Source of the DNA: a virus
DNA: 20,423 nt
Virus record (IMG/VR): IMGVR_UViG_3300033142_000555
Location: 1-20,423 of that record
Reading direction: 5' to 3' (one strand)
Both the position numbers and the translations under genes were made by a program. Below the pieces are notes generated by a model that was not told the origin of the DNA, searched no databases, and saw only the letters and a list, made by a program, of their open reading frames with translations. The stretch's first letter is position 1; the number at the start of each line of letters is the position of its first letter. This document shows positions 511 through 19,321 of the stretch, one piece after another.

Positions 511-1728
511 ATGAATGTAGAGATAAACGAGATTTTTAAACCTTTATTTACTACTAAAAAGAGGTACATATTTATGACTGGTGGGAGGGCTAGTCTAAAG
601 TCTACTACTGCACATAGTTTTATAGCTCTTTTAACTTTAGAATCTGGTCACGGTGTTTTATTTACTAGATACACTATGACAAGTGCTGAAAAGTCAATTA
701 TACCTGAATTTAATATAGCTATTGAAAGACTTGGCTTAGTTAATCAGTTCCATGTAACCAAAAACCAGATAACAAATATTAATACTGGTAGCTTTATAAT
801 CTTTTCAGGAATAAAGACAAGTTCAGGAAATCAAACAGCTAATCTAAAATCATTAGCGGGTATTACAACATGGGTAATAGAAGAAGGCGAAGACTTTAAT
901 GATGAAAAGGCTTTTGATACTATAGACGATTCAATTAGAACTAAAGGCAAACAGAATAGAGTAATATGGATTCAAAACCCTACTACAAAAGAGCATTTTA
1001 TCTATAAAAGGTGGATAGAGCCATTCCCTAAACAAATTGATCTATCAGGTCATAAAGTAACTGTTTCAGGTCATCCAGACGTAGAGCATATTCATTCATG
1101 GTATAAGATCGCAACAAAGTATCTGAGCGAATCATTTTTAAAAAAGGCAAGTAAATCAGAGAAAGAAAATCCTAAATGGTTTTATCATAATTACGTTGGT
1201 GGATGGCTTGAAAAGGCTGAAGGGGTAATATTTGAAAATTGGGAGATAGGCGAATTTGATTACTCTTTACCTTATGGATATGGTTTAGACTTTGGCAGCA
1301 AAGACCCAGACGCTCTAACAAGAGTAGCCATAGATCACAAAAGAATGATTTTATACGTCAAAGAAGAGCTATATAAATCAGGTCTTAGCACTAATGAACT
1401 AGGTTTGATAGTTAAATCTATATGTGAGCATAAATTAATAATAGCGGATAGTGCAAGCCCTAGAACTATACAAGATTTAGATAGTTTAGGGCTAAACATT
1501 AAAGGAGTAAAAAAGCCAGCAGGTAGTATAATAGAAGGAATTAAACTTATGCAGAACTATAAGATAATAGTTCATCCAGATTCTAATAATCTAGTTAAAG
1601 AGCTTAATAACTATATATGGGTAGATAAGAGGGGAGGAGTTCCAATAGATGACTATAATCACTTATTAGATGGATTCAGGTATTACGTTTCCCATACTAC
1701 TAAAAAACAATACTCAGTATTTCTTTGA
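511..1728 (+). CDS. terL: Terminase large subunit (packaging ATPase-nuclease)
   Basis: This 405-residue protein is the motor that pumps and cuts phage DNA at the portal. The N-terminal ATPase shows a Walker A-like P-loop GGRASLKST (residues 24-32). A Walker B and catalytic acid segment follows, WVIEEGEDF (from W121, with E124 and E125), then a coupling-type motif WIQNPTTKEHF. The C-terminal RNase H-like nuclease has three well-placed acidic residues: D260 in YGLDFGSKD, D313 in IIADSASP and D387 in LLDGFRYYV. Length and motif order match the Terminase_3 / PBSX-type family. The ATG at 511 leaves a short lead before the P-loop, normal for the family. The P-loop has Leu where the classical motif has Gly, a variation I recall within this family. 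Confidence 0.95.
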   Translation: MNVEINEIFKPLFTTKKRYIFMTGGRASLKSTTAHSFIALLTLESGHGVLFTRYTMTSAEKSIIPEFNIAIERLGLVNQFHVTKNQITNINTGSFIIFSGIKTSSGNQTANLKSLAGITTWVIEEGEDFNDEKAFDTIDDSIRTKGKQNRVIWIQNPTTKEHFIYKRWIEPFPKQIDLSGHKVTVSGHPDVEHIHSWYKIATKYLSESFLKKASKSEKENPKWFYHNYVGGWLEKAEGVIFENWEIGEFDYSLPYGYGLDFGSKDPDALTRVAIDHKRMILYVKEELYKSGLSTNELGLIVKSICEHKLIIADSASPRTIQDLDSLGLNIKGVKKPAGSIIEGIKLMQNYKIIVHPDSNNLVKELNNYIWVDKRGGVPIDDYNHLLDGFRYYVSHTTKKQYSVFL

Positions 1729-2147: not shown

Positions 2148-3806
2148 ATGGTGCTTTCTGAAATAGAGGTAATTGATCTTTGCAAGGATAAAGAGCCTGA
2201 TGAATGGATAAAAGAAGCTAGAAAAGAAAGTCATCTTTTAAAGATGCACTATTACGGCGAAGGTTTAAGTAATTATCTTACTAAAATCCAAGGCTTAGAA
2301 AACGATGCTCAAATAAATCTCAGAAGAAAGTACGCTATATCTAATGAATCTATAATTTCTTCTTTACTTAGGGCTGTAGATAACGCATGGAGCGCTAAAG
2401 GGGGCATGATCAACATCAACGCTTCTGATACAGTAAAAGAAGATTTAAAAGAGAAAATAAAAGAATCAAATAACGGTCAATCATTAAAGTACTATTTAAG
2501 ACATCAATGGTTTGATAGGTTTTTGACCGATCCTAACGGCCTTTTGTGCTTAGATTCTGATATGGATGGCACTTTAGCTAAACCAGTTTACAAGTCTATT
2601 GATGACATATGTAAAATGAAGGTTAAAGGAACTAAGCCATGTTACGTAGTCTATGAGCCTCACAAAATAGAACAATACGCTGGTAGAACTGATTGTTATA
2701 GATGGGTTGTTGATGATGCTAATTATTATTTAGTAAAAGGCGAAAGTGATAATTGTCAAATAGTAGAAATTAGACCTAACCCGTTTGGAGTTGTTCCTTC
2801 CATTCAAAACAGTCCTATATTAAATACTCTTACTAGGATAAAAAACAGCCCTATCCATAAACAGCTCATGTTGTTAGATTCTTATCTTATAGATAACTCT
2901 GTAAACAACATATATAAAAAGCTACATGGTTTCCCTGTATTCTGGTTTTATACTGGTAAGTGTGAATCATGTAAAGGTAGCGGAGAGATTAACGGCAAAA
3001 CTTGTTCTTCATGTAATGGCACTGGTCAAAGCATGAAAAGAGATGTGTCCGACGGTATACCTTTAAAAACACCTGTAGACTCTGATTCCCCTACAATAGC
3101 GCCTAATATTGCTGGTTACATTCAGCCAGCCTTAGAAACTTGGCAAGAGCAAAGAGTAGAGATTAAAGAAATGTTTGACAGAATCTACTTTTCTCATTGG
3201 GGTACTACAATAGAAAAAGCAGATAATGAAACAGCTACAGGTAGATTTATAGACGCTCAACCAGTAGTAAATAGACTACATCAATACTCTGACATATTTG
3301 AGGATGTTCATAAAAGTTTAATGGAGCTATATACTAGATTCTATTATCCAAATACTCAAATAGATATAACTGTATCTTATGGTCGTAGGTACCTAGTAGA
3401 AACTCCCGATCAGATTTGGAAAAAATACAGAGAATCAAGAAAAGAAGGGGCTGATAATTCATCATTAGACTTATTGCTATCTCAGTTTTATGAATCAGAG
3501 TTTCAAACTGACGAAATGATGAGAGATTATCATCTAAAACTTATTAAGGTTGATCCCTTAGTACATTTTAAAGTTGATGAAGTTTTAAAGATGGATATAA
3601 ACGCATCTTTAAAAAACATGAAGACATATTTCCAAGATTGGAAAAACGTAACACCTATACAACAGGTAATAGATCAAACAACGGAAACATTAATAGATAA
3701 TTTAAAACAATTTTCAGATGAACAGATACAAAGTTTGGAAGCTGGTCAAGGAGAGGGGGGAATTAGTCCGATTCAAGGTCAAGAAGGAGTCAATAGTATT
3801 GCTTAA
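2148..3806 (+). CDS. Portal protein with inserted DnaJ-like zinc finger
   Basis: A 552-residue protein after the terminase genes and before scaffold and capsid genes, the position of the dodecameric portal through which DNA enters the head. Portal-like features are the size, the mixed alpha/beta N-terminal half, the helical stretch about 330-430 (ETWQEQRVEIKEMFDRIYFS, then NETATGRF) and an acidic Gln-rich C-terminus. An unusual insert carries C272, C275, C286 and C289 in two CxxCxGxG motifs (CESCKGSGE and CSSCNGTGQ), the pattern of a DnaJ-type zinc-binding module. I start at the ATG at 2148 because the longer TTG form crosses a promoter-like element. The portal call is from context and overall pattern; the zinc module is directly visible. 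Confidence 0.82.
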   Translation: MVLSEIEVIDLCKDKEPDEWIKEARKESHLLKMHYYGEGLSNYLTKIQGLENDAQINLRRKYAISNESIISSLLRAVDNAWSAKGGMININASDTVKEDLKEKIKESNNGQSLKYYLRHQWFDRFLTDPNGLLCLDSDMDGTLAKPVYKSIDDICKMKVKGTKPCYVVYEPHKIEQYAGRTDCYRWVVDDANYYLVKGESDNCQIVEIRPNPFGVVPSIQNSPILNTLTRIKNSPIHKQLMLLDSYLIDNSVNNIYKKLHGFPVFWFYTGKCESCKGSGEINGKTCSSCNGTGQSMKRDVSDGIPLKTPVDSDSPTIAPNIAGYIQPALETWQEQRVEIKEMFDRIYFSHWGTTIEKADNETATGRFIDAQPVVNRLHQYSDIFEDVHKSLMELYTRFYYPNTQIDITVSYGRRYLVETPDQIWKKYRESRKEGADNSSLDLLLSQFYESEFQTDEMMRDYHLKLIKVDPLVHFKVDEVLKMDINASLKNMKTYFQDWKNVTPIQQVIDQTTETLIDNLKQFSDEQIQSLEAGQGEGGISPIQGQEGVNSIA

Positions 3807-13195: not shown

Positions 13196-14302
13196 ATGGC
13201 GGAAGAAATAAACATTCAACTAGACCCATTTGCAAACACGGGTTTGACTTTATTAGGTAAAATATTTAACAAAGCAGGAACTCAGCAAGGAAGCACAGTT
13301 TCATTAACGGAAAATGCGCCTGCTTTATATTCTGGTGACTTTGATTTATCAAGTACTAGTGATGGGGCGTATGCTGTTAGATTTGAAACTAACACACCTG
13401 ATAAGCTTTACGGAACGGGTACATTGTTTGTGAGAAATAATGCGGAGGTATCACAGGAAAACTTTTTTAACCCATCACTTGACGAGGTAACCACCGACAC
13501 AGCATCAAGAGACGCGTCAAAGGCTGACGTTTCTGGTCTTTCTACATTTGACCCTAGTGTTGACACGGTAACCACCGACACAGCTTCAAGGGATGCAAGT
13601 AAAGCAGACGTAAGCGGATTAGCTACACAGACAAGCGTTGACGACATTCCTAGCGATGTAGATACAGTATTAACCGCTTCGCATGGTTCGGGCACTTGGC
13701 AGCAAGGCACGGGGGGCGATACTGCAGCGGATATTTACACGTACTTTACAGACGGCACAAGAGAGGACGCATTTAAGGCGGATGTAAGCGGCTTATCTAC
13801 CTTCGACCCTAGTACTGACACTGTAACGACTGACACGGCAAGCAGGGACGCTTCTAAGGCGGACGTGAGCGGTTTATCTACCTTTGATCCAACCACGGAT
13901 GAAGTAATAACAGATGCGGCAAGTAGAAACGCAAGTAAAGCGGATGTTTCTGGTTTAGCAACACAATCAAGCGTTGACAATATACCCGCAGACGTAGACA
14001 CAGAGCTTACAAGTTCACACGGTACAGGATCTTGGCAGCAAGGCAGCACGGGAACGGTAGACGCTAACGTTATAAGCGTTGACGGAAATAGTGTGTCAAG
14101 TGCAGACGACTTTAAAGCGGACGTTTCAGGTTTATCTACTTTTGACCCTTCTACAGATCAAGTAACAACCGATAGTGCTAGTAGAGAAGCTAGTAAAGCG
14201 GATGTTTCAGATTTAGGTACTAAAGCGAATCAAAATGTAATTAACGAAGGTGTTAAAAACGCAAGTAGAATAAAACCTCACAACCAAAATTTACCTGATT
14301 AA
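13196..14302 (+). CDS. Repeat-containing tail fibre protein
   Basis: A 368-residue protein. The first 85 residues form a beta domain (INIQLDPFANTGLTLLGKIF, NAPALYSGDFDLSS, DGAYAVRFET) similar to other phage fibre starts. The rest is built from repeated KADVSGL units with alternating linkers: STFDPS-D-VTTDTASRDAS, or ATQTSVDDIPSDVDT with ASHGSGTWQQG. One unit includes TVDANVISVDGNSVSS, a familiar fibre motif. The C-terminal end (KNASRIKPHNQNLPD) leaves the repeat pattern and is a candidate tip or joining point to the next gene. The rod-like repeats suggest a fibre shaft or spacer. The start 10 bases after the previous stop fits co-transcription. Confidence 0.8.
   Translation: MAEEINIQLDPFANTGLTLLGKIFNKAGTQQGSTVSLTENAPALYSGDFDLSSTSDGAYAVRFETNTPDKLYGTGTLFVRNNAEVSQENFFNPSLDEVTTDTASRDASKADVSGLSTFDPSVDTVTTDTASRDASKADVSGLATQTSVDDIPSDVDTVLTASHGSGTWQQGTGGDTAADIYTYFTDGTREDAFKADVSGLSTFDPSTDTVTTDTASRDASKADVSGLSTFDPTTDEVITDAASRNASKADVSGLATQSSVDNIPADVDTELTSSHGTGSWQQGSTGTVDANVISVDGNSVSSADDFKADVSGLSTFDPSTDQVTTDSASREASKADVSDLGTKANQNVINEGVKNASRIKPHNQNLPD
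13469..14230 (+). repeat. Degenerate protein-level repeats in the fibre gene
   Basis: Seven copies of a KADVSGL core (last one KADVSDL), each with linkers of two types. Copies agree much better in amino acids than in bases: the same residues use different codons from copy to copy (for example Ser as TCT, AGC, AGT or TCA). The order of linkers is STFD, ATQT, STFD, STFD, ATQS, STFD, GTKA. Confidence 0.85.
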
Positions 14303-14634: not shown

Positions 14635-15042
14635 CTAAATATTAGAAAACCTAAAATCTTTAGCCCAAATATAAACAGAATCTTTGTAAGTTATTTCTAG
14701 TTGAAAAGTTCCTGAGCCTGTTTTTACTCTTGGAAATAACATAGACCCTACTAAATACTCATTACTACCAGATGTAATATATGTAGTGTCGTTGTATGTT
14801 TCTTTGTATATGATATTACGTGGTAAACTGTCACCTTGTAATAATATTTGTGTAGGTATCATAGAGTTTCCAGAAACGCAAAGAGTCATATAATCTTTAG
14901 ATTGCTCACATTGACCTTTATAATTTTCTATTACAGAATATTCTAAAATATCTTCATTTGTAATAGTTTCGAACTCTTGTATTTCCTCAGTACATGAGCA
15001 ACTAATTATAGTTGCAATTATTAAAAGTAGTTTATTATTCAT
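14635..15042 (-). CDS. Putative lipoprotein
   Basis: A 135-residue protein with a bacterial lipoprotein signal: MNNKLLLIIATIISC places a Cys at residue 15 after I-I-S, followed by SCTEE. The mature part is acidic near the anchor (EIQEFETITNEDILEY). It includes two further Cys (GQCEQSK and MTLCVSGN) and has beta-type segments (TGSGTFQLEITYKDSVYIW), as in a small globular domain. It overlaps the upstream membrane-protein gene by the ATGA arrangement and is followed by a minus-strand terminator. Orientation opposite to the virion genes suggests a host-surface protein, for example lysogenic conversion or superinfection exclusion. An outer-membrane lysis subunit is also possible. The specific function is unknown. 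Confidence 0.75.
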   Translation of the reverse strand: MNNKLLLIIATIISCSCTEEIQEFETITNEDILEYSVIENYKGQCEQSKDYMTLCVSGNSMIPTQILLQGDSLPRNIIYKETYNDTTYITSGSNEYLVGSMLFPRVKTGSGTFQLEITYKDSVYIWAKDFRFSNI

Positions 15043-15248
15043 AGTATTAAATATTTAATTATTATAACGTGTATAAAAGTTTCTATTAGTCCTAAGTTGT
15101 ACCAAATACATATCAAGCAATCGGTCACCCATCTAGGCTTATAGAAAAGTATCATTTCATTTATTGAGCTTTTATTTGCATGTATTATTATTCTGAACAT
15201 AGCCCAAAACATGAAATAAAATAAAATATTAAAAACAGTATTTTCCAT
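15039..15248 (-). CDS. Small two-helix membrane protein
   Basis: A 69-residue protein starting at ATG 15248. A longer frame to 15296 adds 16 residues that cross the intergenic repeat region and look less likely. Two hydrophobic segments are clear: NILFYFMFWAMFRIII (about 6-22) and LICIWYNLGLIETFIHVIII (about 44-65), joined by a polar loop with a few charges (HANKSSINE). The stop overlaps the lipoprotein start (ATGA). Topology and size would suit a holin-like or membrane anchor protein, and pairing with a lipoprotein suggests the two act together at the envelope. No family is recognised. Confidence 0.65.
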   Translation of the reverse strand: MENTVFNILFYFMFWAMFRIIIHANKSSINEMILFYKPRWVTDCLICIWYNLGLIETFIHVIIIKYLIL

Positions 15249-15290
15249 ATTTATAGTGGTGTTTATTTTTAAATAAAGTGCATATGTGCT

Positions 15291-15320
15291 TTGCAACTAC
15301 GTTGTAAACAATGCTACAAC
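15291..15320. repeat. Cluster of GTTGTAA-type inverted half-sites
   Basis: TTGCAAC (15291-15297) and GTTGTAA (15301-15307) are inverted with one mismatch around TAC. CTACAAC (15314-15320) is a third, inverted half-site, so GTTGTA (15301-15306) also pairs with TACAAC (15315-15320). It lies between two minus-strand genes and extends into the end of the 66-residue gene. No T-run follows on either strand. Confidence 0.4.
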
Positions 15321-15514
15321 TTTGCTAATAATTCATCCAATTTGCGATTTAACGAATCCAACCTATCAGAGTTTGAGTAGGTTAATAAATTTTCGTCAAC
15401 ATCTTTTAACTGTTCTTTAGTTAGTGTTTTACTTATTTCAATCAATTCTTCTTCTTCAAAAACTGTAGCAGTTAAATTTCTGCGTTTTTCTAATAATTCG
15501 TTAAATCTCTCCAT
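15314..15514 (-). CDS. Small charged helical protein
   Basis: A 66-residue, Glu/Leu/Lys-rich protein. It is predicted almost entirely helical: MERFNELLEKRRNLTATVFE at the start, ELIEISKTLTKEQLKDVDEN in the middle, and a heptad-like end (RLDSLNRKLDELLAKL) able to form a coiled coil. No DNA-binding HTH is obvious, although a small regulatory or anti-repressor peptide could look like this. The gene stands alone between two intergenic stretches with inverted repeats, 65 bases from the next minus-strand gene downstream and 82 bases from the one upstream. Product not recognised. Confidence 0.6.
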   Translation of the reverse strand: MERFNELLEKRRNLTATVFEEEELIEISKTLTKEQLKDVDENLLTYSNSDRLDSLNRKLDELLAKL

Positions 15515-15801: not shown

Positions 15802-15975
15802 ATGAAAAAAATAATAAATACAATAATTGCTAAAGTGTTAATACTAATATCTACAGTATTATCAAAGAAAATATTATTCTACTCTATATACTTACTATCA
15901 ATGTATGTCATGATATTTTGGGCTTACAAGATAGTATCATACCCTTTCATTAAACTATATGAAATATTATTTTAA
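15802..15975 (+). CDS. 57-residue membrane protein
   Basis: The frame runs from the ATG at 15802 to TAA 15973-15975, whose last base is the first base of the next start codon (TAATG). Two hydrophobic helices are visible: IINTIIAKVLILISTVL after MKK, and ILFYSIYLLSMYVMIFWAYK after the turn SKK. The C-terminus (SYPFIKLYEILF) is also aromatic and hydrophobic. Size and two-helix layout would suit a holin or other small membrane protein, but it has no recognised family. One-base overlap indicates translation coupled to the tail-assembly chaperone gene, an odd partner for a membrane peptide. Confidence 0.6.
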   Translation: MKKIINTIIAKVLILISTVLSKKILFYSIYLLSMYVMIFWAYKIVSYPFIKLYEILF

Positions 15976-16457
15976 TGAAAGAAATAAAACTAGGATTTAG
16001 AAATAAAATAAAGCTATACGACTCTTGTAAAGAAATGCCTATTACTAGGTATCACGAATTACAGAAGCTAGCCATGATAGATATGGGTATAGGTTCTACA
16101 GTAGAAGACTTTAATGGTCATTTTTCAAAGCTTCATGCATACATAGCAAACGATAAAAAGGAAGATTCTATAAACGAGATGAAAAACGTTTTTAAGAATT
16201 TTTATTTGATGATTGACCGAGTAGGCGTATGGTCTTATTCTATGCTTTGTTTTATTCACTCTATAAACAATAAAGAGTATGAACTATCAGAGGATAGATA
16301 TAAAGAAGATATTTTACTACTGTCAAAAAAGGGATTAACTGTAAAACATTGTGAAGATCAGATTAATGAATTAAAAAAAAAATTCATAACGAACTGGAAT
16401 CATATTTTCCTACAAGATATAATGGAACAACAAATGCCAACATCATATCAGATGTAA
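15975..16457 (+). CDS. Tail assembly chaperone, short form (putative)
   Basis: A 160-residue soluble, mostly helical protein directly before the tape measure region, the place of the lambda gpG-type chaperone in long-tailed phages. It has no membrane segment and no obvious domain; visible pieces are RYHELQKLAMIDMGIGSTVE, FYLMIDRVGVWSYSMLCFIH and the charged stretch QINELKKKFITNW. The LKKKF codons form a run of ten A (16373-16382) where a second open frame, shifted by -1, begins and continues to 16753. That arrangement (short form plus frameshifted long form) is the classical signature of tail assembly chaperones, and supports the name more strongly than the sequence itself. Confidence 0.72.
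   Translation: MKEIKLGFRNKIKLYDSCKEMPITRYHELQKLAMIDMGIGSTVEDFNGHFSKLHAYIANDKKEDSINEMKNVFKNFYLMIDRVGVWSYSMLCFIHSINNKEYELSEDRYKEDILLLSKKGLTVKHCEDQINELKKKFITNWNHIFLQDIMEQQMPTSYQM
16373..16382 (+). other. Predicted -1 ribosomal frameshift site
   Basis: Ten consecutive A following TT; in the upstream frame this reads TTA AAA AAA AAA TTC, giving A_AAA_AAA slippery heptamers. The -1 frame has stops at 16364-16366 and 16367-16369 just before it and is open afterwards to 16753. Confidence 0.7.
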
Positions 16458-16753
16458 AAAGGCAATCTATAAAAATACTAGAGTCTATAATAGCTGATTA
16501 TAAAGGTGATTTAGAAGCAAAGAAAAAAGCGGATAAAGTCATAGCTAGTATAGATGACTATATAGTAAGTTTAAACCCTCCCAAAGATTTTTCAGACACT
16601 GCGGATAGCTGTATTATACATTTAGAGAAGTCATTTGAGTATCTACGTACTTCTATGGAAGAAGTAGGTATATCAAGCCCTAAAAAGCTATCTGTATATG
16701 AATTCAACTCTAAGATTGATTACTTTAAATCAAAAAGTAAGTCTGCAAAATAA
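16382..16753 (+). CDS. Tail assembly chaperone, -1 frame extension
   Basis: After a -1 slip at the A-run, reading continues from ATT at 16382 for 123 codons to TAA 16751-16753, giving a long form of about 259 residues with the same N-terminal 136. The extension has clear protein character: VKRQSIKILESIIADYKGDL, KKKADKVIASIDDYIVSLNP, SLEKSFEYL-like helices and YEFNSKIDYFKSKSKSAK at the end. It has no usable start codon near its beginning; the first ATG is about 16657, deep inside. It is therefore best explained as the GT-type extension that contacts the tape measure protein. A fission by sequencing error in the homopolymer is the alternative. Confidence 0.68.
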   Translation: MHNELESYFPTRYNGTTNANIISDVKRQSIKILESIIADYKGDLEAKKKADKVIASIDDYIVSLNPPKDFSDTADSCIIHLEKSFEYLRTSMEEVGISSPKKLSVYEFNSKIDYFKSKSKSAK

Positions 16754-16824
16754 AAAAGCCTAGTCACCGTCTATGACTAGGCTAAAAGTTGCTCAAATTG
16801 TGTACCACGTAGTCACTCGACTAC
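16751..16824 (-). ncRNA. Candidate small minus-strand RNA
   Basis: The minus strand of this gap has a promoter-like pair (16829-16859), then GTAGTC/GACTAC (16824-16819 and 16814-16809) as a small hairpin. A 10-bp perfect hairpin follows (16783-16774 with 16766-16757), ending in a run of six T. That is a full set of signals for an RNA of about 70 bases. The second arm of the first hairpin (TGACTA) could also pair with TAGTCA of the terminator arm, so alternative folds exist. No open frame of useful length is seen. Not confirmed by any homologue. Confidence 0.3.
16757..16783 (-). terminator. Strong hairpin with terminator form on the minus strand
   Basis: AGCCTAGTCA (16757-16766) and TGACTAGGCT (16774-16783) pair perfectly around a 7-base loop. 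On the minus strand it is followed by TTTTTTATTTT. On the plus strand it is followed by AAAAGTTG, so it should not end transcripts coming from the chaperone gene. Confidence 0.55.
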
Positions 16825-16879: not shown

Positions 16880-19321
16880 ATGTCTAAAAAAATTACATAC
16901 GCTGATATATTTGATTTTTCTAATCCCGCCGATGTTAAAAAAGCAATTAAGGCTATTAATGATTTAAACAAGGTTTACAAAGATTTAGAAAAGACACTCG
17001 CTAAAGGTTCGGCTAGTGTTGAAGCTTCAATGAAGAATACTGTAAATTCAGCCGATGAATTAGAGAAAGAATTAAAGAAACTTAGCGAAGTAAAGAAGGA
17101 AGAACAAAAACAAATACAAGAGTATAACAACAAAGCAAAAGCGTTAAGCATATCTTATGAAAATCAAAAAAAGAAAGTCCAAGAGCTACAAAAGCAAGAG
17201 CAAAAGCTCAAATCCGAGCGTGAAAAGCTATCCAAAGAAAACCAAAAAATAACCAAACAAGAAAAGGAAAGAATAAGGTTACAAGATAGATTAGCTAAAT
17301 CTACGGGTAAAGATGCACAGGAGACGGCTAAACTTAAAATACAAATACAGGAGGCTAATAAAGCTACAAAAGAAAGAGCTAAAGAAGCTTTGGGACTAGT
17401 TTCTATATATCAAAAGGAATCAGCCAGATTAAACGATCTAAGAAAAAGATATAAAGAAGTAGCATTATCACAGGGTGCAAGCTCAAAAGAGGCTAAGAAG
17501 TTACAAAAAGAAGCCAAAGCATTAGATAAACAGTTAAAGTCCTTGGATTCTAATGTTGGTCAAAATCAAAGACTTGTAGGCGCTTACGGTGATGCTCTTA
17601 GTAATACTATACCAGCTTTAGGAGCGGTAAGAAATCAAGTAGGCTTGCTATTTAAGTTAATAGCCACTAATCCGATAGGTTTATTAATTACGGCTTTAGT
17701 AGGTTTAGCCGCTGCTTTTGCTAAAACACAAAAAGGAGCTGATTTAATAGCTCAGTCTACGGAGTTTATAAGCGCTGTATTTGATGAGCTTATAAGTAGA
17801 GTAGCAAAGTTAGGTTCAGCCTTAGTAAAATTTATATCATTTGATTTTAAAGGAGCTGCTGAGGATGCTAGCGCGGCTATAGATGATATAGGTAACGGAT
17901 TACTAGAGGCTGGTAAATCTGCTAGTAAACTATCAAAAGAAAGACAAGAGTTTAGAGATAGAGAAAGAGAGATTAACGTTCAGTTATCTAAAAATAGGTC
18001 TATAATACAAGATTTAATTCTTATAACAAGAGAAAGAAAGTTTGATGAAGAAACTATAGCTAAACAAAGAAAAGCTTTACTAGATGCTAGTGCTTTAGAG
18101 TTGAAAAACGAAGAACTAAAGCTAGAACTAGCACAAAAAAGATTAGAATTTGCAGAACAAGAGCTTAAAAACAATGCTGACGGCTTAGACGATCAGGAAT
18201 TACAAAATGATATAGCCGAAGCTAGAGTAGCTTTATTTGATGCTCAGGCATCTTCAAGAGCAAGACAAAGAGATATAGCCAACAGACAAATAGAATTTGA
18301 AGCTAGAATAACGAACGAGTTTAAACGTCAAAAATCTGAGCTAGATAAAATTGCTAAGTCTAGTAAAAATGTTCAAAGAGCTACCGATTTACGTTTAGAG
18401 ATAGAAGAGGGATTTACAGAAAGCCTAAACAGTGAATTAGACAAAAGAACGAACGCCATAGCTAAAGCAAGCGCTAAACAATTAGCTATAGAGCAAGAAA
18501 CAGCCGAAAAAAGAAAATTAATACAAGAAAACTCATTTCAAGCCGCTTCTTTGATAGGTAATCAGTTGTTTACTAACGCTAATATTAGAAGTCAAAACGA
18601 ACTAACTAATTTTAAGAGGCAAAAAGAGGTAGAATTAGAGCTAGCGGGTGAAAATGCACAAGCTAGGGCAGCTATAGAATCACAAATAGCAGAAAAAGAA
18701 AAGCAAGTCAAAATAAAACAAGCTAAAGACAATAAAAAGCAAGCTCTTTTTAATATAGCTGTCAATACCGCTCAAGGGGTTACAAAAGCTTTAGCTACAG
18801 CTAATATACCATTGTCAATAGTTATAGGTTTATTAGGGGGTGTACAAGCTGGTTTAGTAGCATCTCAGCCATTACCGCAGTTTGAGGATGGAGGTTTTAA
18901 AAATATGTCTGGTGATGCTATAGTAGGAGAGAAAGGTTATGAATATTCGGTTTCTCCTAGTGGTAAATTAACAAAGGTAGGTGCTAACGGTGCAGAAGTA
19001 AGGAGCGATATAGAAAAAGGGTCTTTTATAATACCTCATCATGTATCTAAGGCGCTTGATGATTACGGTATGAACGCAGAAGGCATATATTCTAGTTCAG
19101 CTAACTCATTAAAGCAAATAATAGAAGCTAGAGAGGATAAAATGGCTATGGCTATAGTCAAATCTTTTGCAAGGGAAAATGATATACTAGCTGAAAAGTT
19201 TGATCAGTCAATTAAAAATGTACCGCAAACTGAGTGGAACATATCAGACAGGAAACTAAAAAGTTACATCGTAGAAGGTAACACTAAGAGAAATGATTGG
19301 AGGTCTAAAAACAGATTTTAA
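16880..19321 (+). CDS. Tail tape measure protein
   Basis: An 813-residue protein, the longest in the window, following the frameshifted chaperone as in most long-tailed phages. It sets tail length during assembly and is later ejected into the host envelope. Residues about 20-235 are a near-continuous Lys/Glu/Gln coiled coil (KEEQKQIQEYNNKAKALSIS and on). A hydrophobic stretch follows at about 257-281 (NPIGLLITALVGLAAAFAKT), then more coiled coil to about 630, and hydrophobic residues near 640-660 (ANIPLSIVIGLLGGVQAGLV). The C-terminus has the typical FEDGGFKNMSGDAIVGEKGY and GSFIIPHHVSKAL motif region. By the usual rule of about 0.15 nm per residue the tail would be roughly 120 nm. No lytic domain is seen. 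Confidence 0.92.
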   Translation: MSKKITYADIFDFSNPADVKKAIKAINDLNKVYKDLEKTLAKGSASVEASMKNTVNSADELEKELKKLSEVKKEEQKQIQEYNNKAKALSISYENQKKKVQELQKQEQKLKSEREKLSKENQKITKQEKERIRLQDRLAKSTGKDAQETAKLKIQIQEANKATKERAKEALGLVSIYQKESARLNDLRKRYKEVALSQGASSKEAKKLQKEAKALDKQLKSLDSNVGQNQRLVGAYGDALSNTIPALGAVRNQVGLLFKLIATNPIGLLITALVGLAAAFAKTQKGADLIAQSTEFISAVFDELISRVAKLGSALVKFISFDFKGAAEDASAAIDDIGNGLLEAGKSASKLSKERQEFRDREREINVQLSKNRSIIQDLILITRERKFDEETIAKQRKALLDASALELKNEELKLELAQKRLEFAEQELKNNADGLDDQELQNDIAEARVALFDAQASSRARQRDIANRQIEFEARITNEFKRQKSELDKIAKSSKNVQRATDLRLEIEEGFTESLNSELDKRTNAIAKASAKQLAIEQETAEKRKLIQENSFQAASLIGNQLFTNANIRSQNELTNFKRQKEVELELAGENAQARAAIESQIAEKEKQVKIKQAKDNKKQALFNIAVNTAQGVTKALATANIPLSIVIGLLGGVQAGLVASQPLPQFEDGGFKNMSGDAIVGEKGYEYSVSPSGKLTKVGANGAEVRSDIEKGSFIIPHHVSKALDDYGMNAEGIYSSSANSLKQIIEAREDKMAMAIVKSFARENDILAEKFDQSIKNVPQTEWNISDRKLKSYIVEGNTKRNDWRSKNRF

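Follow-up and report, generated by a model that had tools for sequence, protein, structure and literature searches.

How does a single gene give rise to two proteins when its coding capacity is divided between two overlapping reading frames, with nothing but a run of A residues at their junction? The question arises from a virus record of 20,423 bases (34% GC), referred to here as the window. A plus-strand ORF at 15975..16457 (160 aa, TAA at 16455) passes through ten consecutive A residues at 16373..16382, read in the zero frame as TTA AAA AAA AAA TTC, so that the junction, TT A_AAA_AAA, holds a slippery heptamer of the XXXYYYZ type in zero-frame phase. The -1 frame has stops at 16364 (TAA) and 16367 (TGA), is open from 16370, extends 123 codons beyond the run until it meets the TAA at 16751-16753, and has no start codon near its beginning in the window sequence. 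The plus-strand segment 16370..16753 encodes the C-terminal part of a 259-aa long product, and the 24 residues that the zero frame adds after the run (16383..16457, plus strand) belong to the short form only. The first-pass annotation had given this layout, with a zero frame ending at 16457 and products of 160 and about 259 residues, and the sequence confirms it in full. Frameshifting in tail assembly chaperone genes is a conserved feature of long-tailed phages and is normally read as ribosomal.

Both frames belong to the same protein family. The zero-frame product matches phrog_8914 at positions 2-145 (E 3e-29), and the -1 frame product matches positions 133-248 of the 250 positions of this family (E 1.5e-11); since the two frames match one family, both are real coding sequence, as had been claimed for the extension. 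In tblastn searches, the fused protein of 259 aa recovers 77 phage records, with hosts that, where named by organism, are Bacteroidota genera. Most of the records with full query coverage have the chaperone in one single frame, and the fused sequence covers such single-frame relatives, which span both parts, to 98-100%. The possibility that the extension is a separate downstream gene is ruled out by the missing start codon and by the fusion of the two parts in relatives.

The genomic context is that of a G/GT-type locus, with a chaperone gene immediately upstream of the tape measure gene, both in the window and in the annotations of relatives, and with two overlapping frames that encode a short product and one extended at its C-terminus. 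The tape measure protein is encoded directly downstream at 16880..19321 (plus strand; matches to phrog_18891 and phrog_167), and the earlier assignment of a tail chaperone gene preceding it is supported by this position and by the phrog matches. On the other side, a 57-aa hydrophobic ORF (15802..15975, plus strand) ends in TAATG overlapping the chaperone start, and its place is taken by a gene of approximately 86 aa in relatives. The AlphaFold model of the short form of the window has a pLDDT of 87.7, and a model of the long form of one relative (L021) reaches 93. When the Foldseek matches were re-examined, 89 of the 107 residues of the HK97 tail assembly chaperone 2ob9 aligned with the short form at Z 5.3, a score tied with those of unrelated helical proteins; a whole-model fold comparison returned helical fragments only, no sequence relatives with a solved structure were found, and no Pfam chaperone family was matched. 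Thus, the name chaperone rests on gene position, the two-product design, the annotation of relatives and a weak fold match to 2ob9. By analogy with G and GT of lambda, the short and long forms may both act on the tape measure protein.

Several other features of the window were recorded. Between the chaperone and tape measure genes, at 16757-16783, there is a strong 11-pair hairpin that is terminator-like on the minus strand, and the 127-nt intergenic region as a whole has a fold z of -3.9. Within the plus-strand tail gene cluster, three small minus-strand ORFs at 14635-15514 (135 aa with a lipoprotein-like N-terminus, 85 aa and 66 aa) resemble a cargo (moron) insertion. A 368-aa protein encoded at 13196-14302 is built of near-repeats (STFDPSTDTVTTDTASRDASKADVSGL), and the portal protein contains a DnaJ-type CXXCXGXG zinc-binding motif (2961-3039; PF00684, E 8e-5, below the cutoff of Pfam).

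A bare A10 is unremarkable in an AT-rich window, and the weight of the observation comes from relatives. At least one A10 or T10 appears in 52 of 100 dinucleotide shuffles of the window, in which the run at 16373-16382 is the only A/T run of nine or more; chance origin of the run, which would be possible judged on the window alone, is ruled out by its conservation in relatives. In the protein alignment of relatives, the frame junction is marked by three invariant lysines, which correspond to an A-run at the DNA level in every relative of the first set examined. The analysis was extended to 132 distinct loci from viral and genome contigs and phage records, and to 134 with the addition of two further terminase-linked records whose contig includes the chaperone (L267 and L268). 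A run of A8 or longer is present at the homologous codons in 131 of the 132 loci and in 133 of the 134 (A8-A11), counts that are non-independent because the loci are kin to each other, which dereplication and shuffling allow for in part only; some of the loci are on metagenomic contigs, where homopolymer errors are possible in individual cases. The comparison with related phages that had been suggested thus finds the run kept almost throughout, with both frames inside phrog_8914, and the A10 that, according to the first-pass annotation, would be a notable variant in a Bacteroidota phage turns out to be the rule in the family.

The run is 9-11 residues long in nearly all loci and occurs in phase 0 or 2. 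A10 from codon position 1 within one open frame is found in 91 of the 132 loci, A9 at codon position 1 in 17 and A11 from codon position 3 in nine; 11 loci are split between frames, and the remaining ones are single-frame variants. The lone exception to A8 or longer among the 132 loci is an A6 in the context CGA AAA AAG, which contains the E. coli dnaX heptamer. The only short-run members, L070 and L071 (run at 3366, CGA AAA AAG), have possibly switched to ribosomal frameshifting. Lysine codons at the site are AAA in 359 cases and AAG in two, against 1474 AAA and 1181 AAG in the rest of the same genes, and AAA is kept even in genes of ~60% GC; one of these (L069, 60% GC) has no AAA elsewhere and yet retains the run. 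Other A/T runs of nine or more number only six in 818 kb of these loci. The isolate Flavobacterium phage 1/32 shares with the window an A10 site in the same phase, and its gene is annotated as frameshifted.

The host and module assignments of some relatives deserve mention. Three members (L113, L117 and L118) come from MAGs labelled Propionibacterium, Clostridia and Bacillota, and probably represent phage contigs assigned to an incorrect host during binning. Most of the long contigs that encode a terminase 46-62% identical to that of the window (511-1728; L187-L266) have no phrog_8914 match, and the terminase and tail modules appear to be mosaic.

The position of the two products relative to the frame differs among loci. 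In most relatives, the long protein is encoded in one frame, with nearby stops in both other frames, whereas in at least 13 loci, including the window, L267 and L268, the polarity is reversed and it is the short protein that is in frame. In the window, a shift would thus be needed for the long product, as annotated; in most relatives the extension is part of one continuous ORF, where slippage would yield the short form. An exact -1 shift is required in 12 of the 13 split loci. Of the 11 within the set of 132, ten could reach the long frame by gaining one A or by a -1 shift, and Croceibacter phage P2559S (A8) calls for a different change. The latter locus (L007, run at 2887) has two annotated ORFs in a frame relation unlike that of all other split members, perhaps as a result of a sequencing indel. 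The zero-frame tails after the run comprise 0-28 codons in the other split members, comparable to the 24 residues in the window; the zero-frame stop is immediate in L118 (GTC AAA AAA AAA TAG) and L117 (CTA AAA AAA AAA TAA). On the phylogenetic tree, where the window sits on a very long branch of unsure placement, the split state needs eight changes, of which at least five are forced by well-supported branches. In dnaX, for example, an efficiency near 50% allows a single nucleotide to reverse which product needs the shift (PMC5009743, a review), and 5-8 reversals of polarity are what would be expected of an efficient site that is indifferent to frame.

The surroundings of the run carry further signals in the main class of relatives. 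Across 85 representatives, the 36 nt directly upstream of the run fold far more stably than synonymous-codon shuffles (mean z -1.8); the signal is strong in the A10 class at codon position 1 (mean z -1.87 +- 0.11, 73 representatives), at best weak in the A9 and A11 classes (a 5' hairpin is lacking in the Flavobacterium A11 class and in the majority of A9 members) and mixed in the split class. In 73 of 77 cases, the 3' end of the hairpin is at most 2 nt away from the edge of the run. Covariation is seen in two groups that pair in different registers, with scores of 0.302 against 0.110 and 0.647 against 0.235; none of 500 shuffles reaches these scores in either register, and the signal collapses on sliding. 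Thus the hairpin directly 5' of the motif that characterizes stem-loop-mediated slippage is strongly developed in the main class and absent from the window, L267 and L268 (z +0.88, +0.74 and -0.51). Downstream structure is found neither in the family (z +0.25 against synonymous-codon shuffles) nor in the window, and a downstream stem-loop was dropped as a candidate stimulator; a Shine-Dalgarno-like stimulator was likewise rejected, the frequency of such cores in the 20 nt upstream (0.35) being equal to that in the -80 bin. In the main class, both other frames reach a stop sooner than the synonymous null predicts (3.35 against 10.78 codons, 0/300; 6.1 against 9.25 codons, 1/300). This enrichment is clearest in the frame reached by loss of one A, also when all classes are pooled; close stops are confined to this frame in the A9 class and do not occur in both other frames in the A11 class.

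We propose that the gene makes two tail assembly chaperone proteins with a shared N-terminal domain through programmed slippage of RNA polymerase on the run of about ten A residues, a reading to which we assign a probability of roughly two in three. Both that slippage occurs and that RNA polymerase is responsible we infer from sequence. Under this scenario, the polymerase would slip while the A-run fills its 9-10 bp RNA-DNA hybrid, yielding a pool of mRNAs, some having lost or gained A residues, each of them normally translated. In the window, the faithful A10 transcript would give the 160-aa form and a transcript with one extra A (A11) the 259-aa form, and loss of one A would leave a transcript whose translation very soon ends at a stop. 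Most relatives would make the long form from the faithful transcript and the short form from slipped ones, and there the hairpin folded directly 5' of the run probably raises slippage. Bacterial transcription slips efficiently on as few as nine A or T residues, a run of 9-11 A occupies the whole RNA-DNA hybrid, and polymerase slippage is known to be stimulated by a hairpin immediately 5' of the motif (PMC5009743). What is found at these loci is an A/T homopolymer of about nine or more residues inside a coding region, conserved as nucleotides; its length of 9-11, independent of phase, beyond the 7 nt that a heptamer requires and near the size of the hybrid, points to transcriptional slippage.

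The main alternative, ribosomal -1 frameshifting on A_AAA_AAA in the manner of lambda G/GT but at an all-A site, we regard as unlikely though deserving of serious consideration. The heptamer is canonical and in the correct phase, nearly all split members need precisely the shift that a ribosomal -1 event would produce, G/GT frameshifting in the experimentally studied phages is ribosomal (PMC5009743), and neither the window nor its two terminase-linked relatives have the 5' hairpin, while the A11 class lacks close stops in both other frames; all these observations speak against polymerase slippage or for the ribosome. However, the 3' structure that often helps such shifts is missing from family and window alike, AAG is excluded from the site despite the greater tendency of A_AAA_AAG to shift in E. 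coli (PMC5009743), and the run is held at 9-11 residues where seven would suffice. Furthermore, the hairpin is located 5' of the run and abuts it, so that a decoding ribosome would presumably have melted it, and stop enrichment is strongest in the frame that a -1 shift does not reach. The near absence of AAG, the 5' hairpin in the main class, the lack of downstream structure and the close stops in both other frames together favor transcriptional over ribosomal slippage, and for the family we consider transcriptional slippage the probable mechanism. For the window itself this is less certain, given that A_AAA_AAA without a stimulator could also act at translation. Of the programmed -1 frameshift originally annotated, a site of frame change is very probable, and the evidence favors its transcriptional origin over the ribosomal one.

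Two explanations at the level of DNA fare far worse. An assembly or sequencing indel, with the true virus having A11 (or A9) and one continuous frame, is improbable, even though the homopolymer lies within a metagenomic contig, single-frame A11 relatives exist and a search for another contig of this virus that spans the run found none. The two loci reached via the terminase of the window agree with it in the A10, its phase and the split (152/253 residues in L267 and 152/255 in L268), and it is therefore unlikely that the window contains a sequencing error; moreover, the isolate Flavobacterium phage 1/32 has the same site, and nearly all split loci shift in one direction. Given the A11 single-frame relatives, an A11 in the window would merely exchange the in-frame product, and the run would remain the slippage site of the family. 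Still less credible is phase variation, with the A-run as a hypermutable contingency locus that toggles the long form between genomes: the homopolymer is long and the frame differs between the sister loci L100 (A11) and L102 (A10), but the covarying hairpin and the close stops would be left unexplained, and contingency is not to be expected of a tail gene that every particle requires.

Polymerase slippage on the A-run can be compared with several known systems. Like the gene in the window, lambda G/GT and the HK97-type chaperones are located directly before the tape measure gene and have short and long products with a common N-terminus in a -1 frame relation (Xu et al., 2004, cited in PMC3711429; PMC5009743), and in fold the short product modestly resembles the HK97 chaperone 2ob9. 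Unlike the G/GT genes as described in these sources, phrog_8914 loci have the long form in one frame in most relatives, an all-A run of 9-11 and, in many relatives, a 5' hairpin; nor is there a detectable sequence relation of the window protein to Pfam chaperone families. Thermus thermophilus dnaX, with transcriptional slippage on nine A/T, shares with the phrog_8914 genes an A-run of about nine or more, and with the main class of relatives the close stops in both other frames and the in-frame long form (PMC5009743); the differences are that here a phage tail gene is involved, many members have a 5' hairpin and the polarity in the window is reversed. In E. coli dnaX and in bacteria with reversed dnaX polarity, as here, a small change of the site flips which product needs the shift, whereas E. 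coli dnaX, in contrast to the reading favored here, relies on the ribosome, which shifts by -1 on A_AAA_AAG aided by stimulators in the mRNA (PMC5009743). The stem-loop-mediated transcriptional slippage of Roseiflexus IS630 (Penno 2015, in PMC5009743) resembles the main class in its nascent-RNA hairpin directly 5' of the motif; its motif is U5C5, with deletion of one C only, as opposed to the pure A-run here, and the window lacks the hairpin. The closest counterpart within the family is the joined (frameshifted) chaperone annotation F132_37/F132_38 of Flavobacterium phage 1/32 (KJ018210), at about 26% protein identity to the window.

Tail chaperones made by frameshifting have precedents, as does slippage on A-runs, but no earlier description of a family-wide, hairpin-linked, polarity-flipping A10 site in tail chaperone genes was found in the open-licence literature. 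On balance, with odds somewhat better than even, this family of Bacteroidota phage chaperones sets the ratio of short to long form by RNA polymerase slippage on A10, boosted by a hairpin in many members and efficient enough to permit repeated swaps of the in-frame product. The same output of two products is apparently maintained here by a nucleotide signal that suits RNA polymerase, and the whole family offers a testable case of convergent regulation. The site is hidden in most members, where the gene looks like one ordinary ORF, and its polarity explains why some phages have one annotated gene where others have two. Chaperone genes that appear as single ORFs should therefore be checked for a short form made by slippage.
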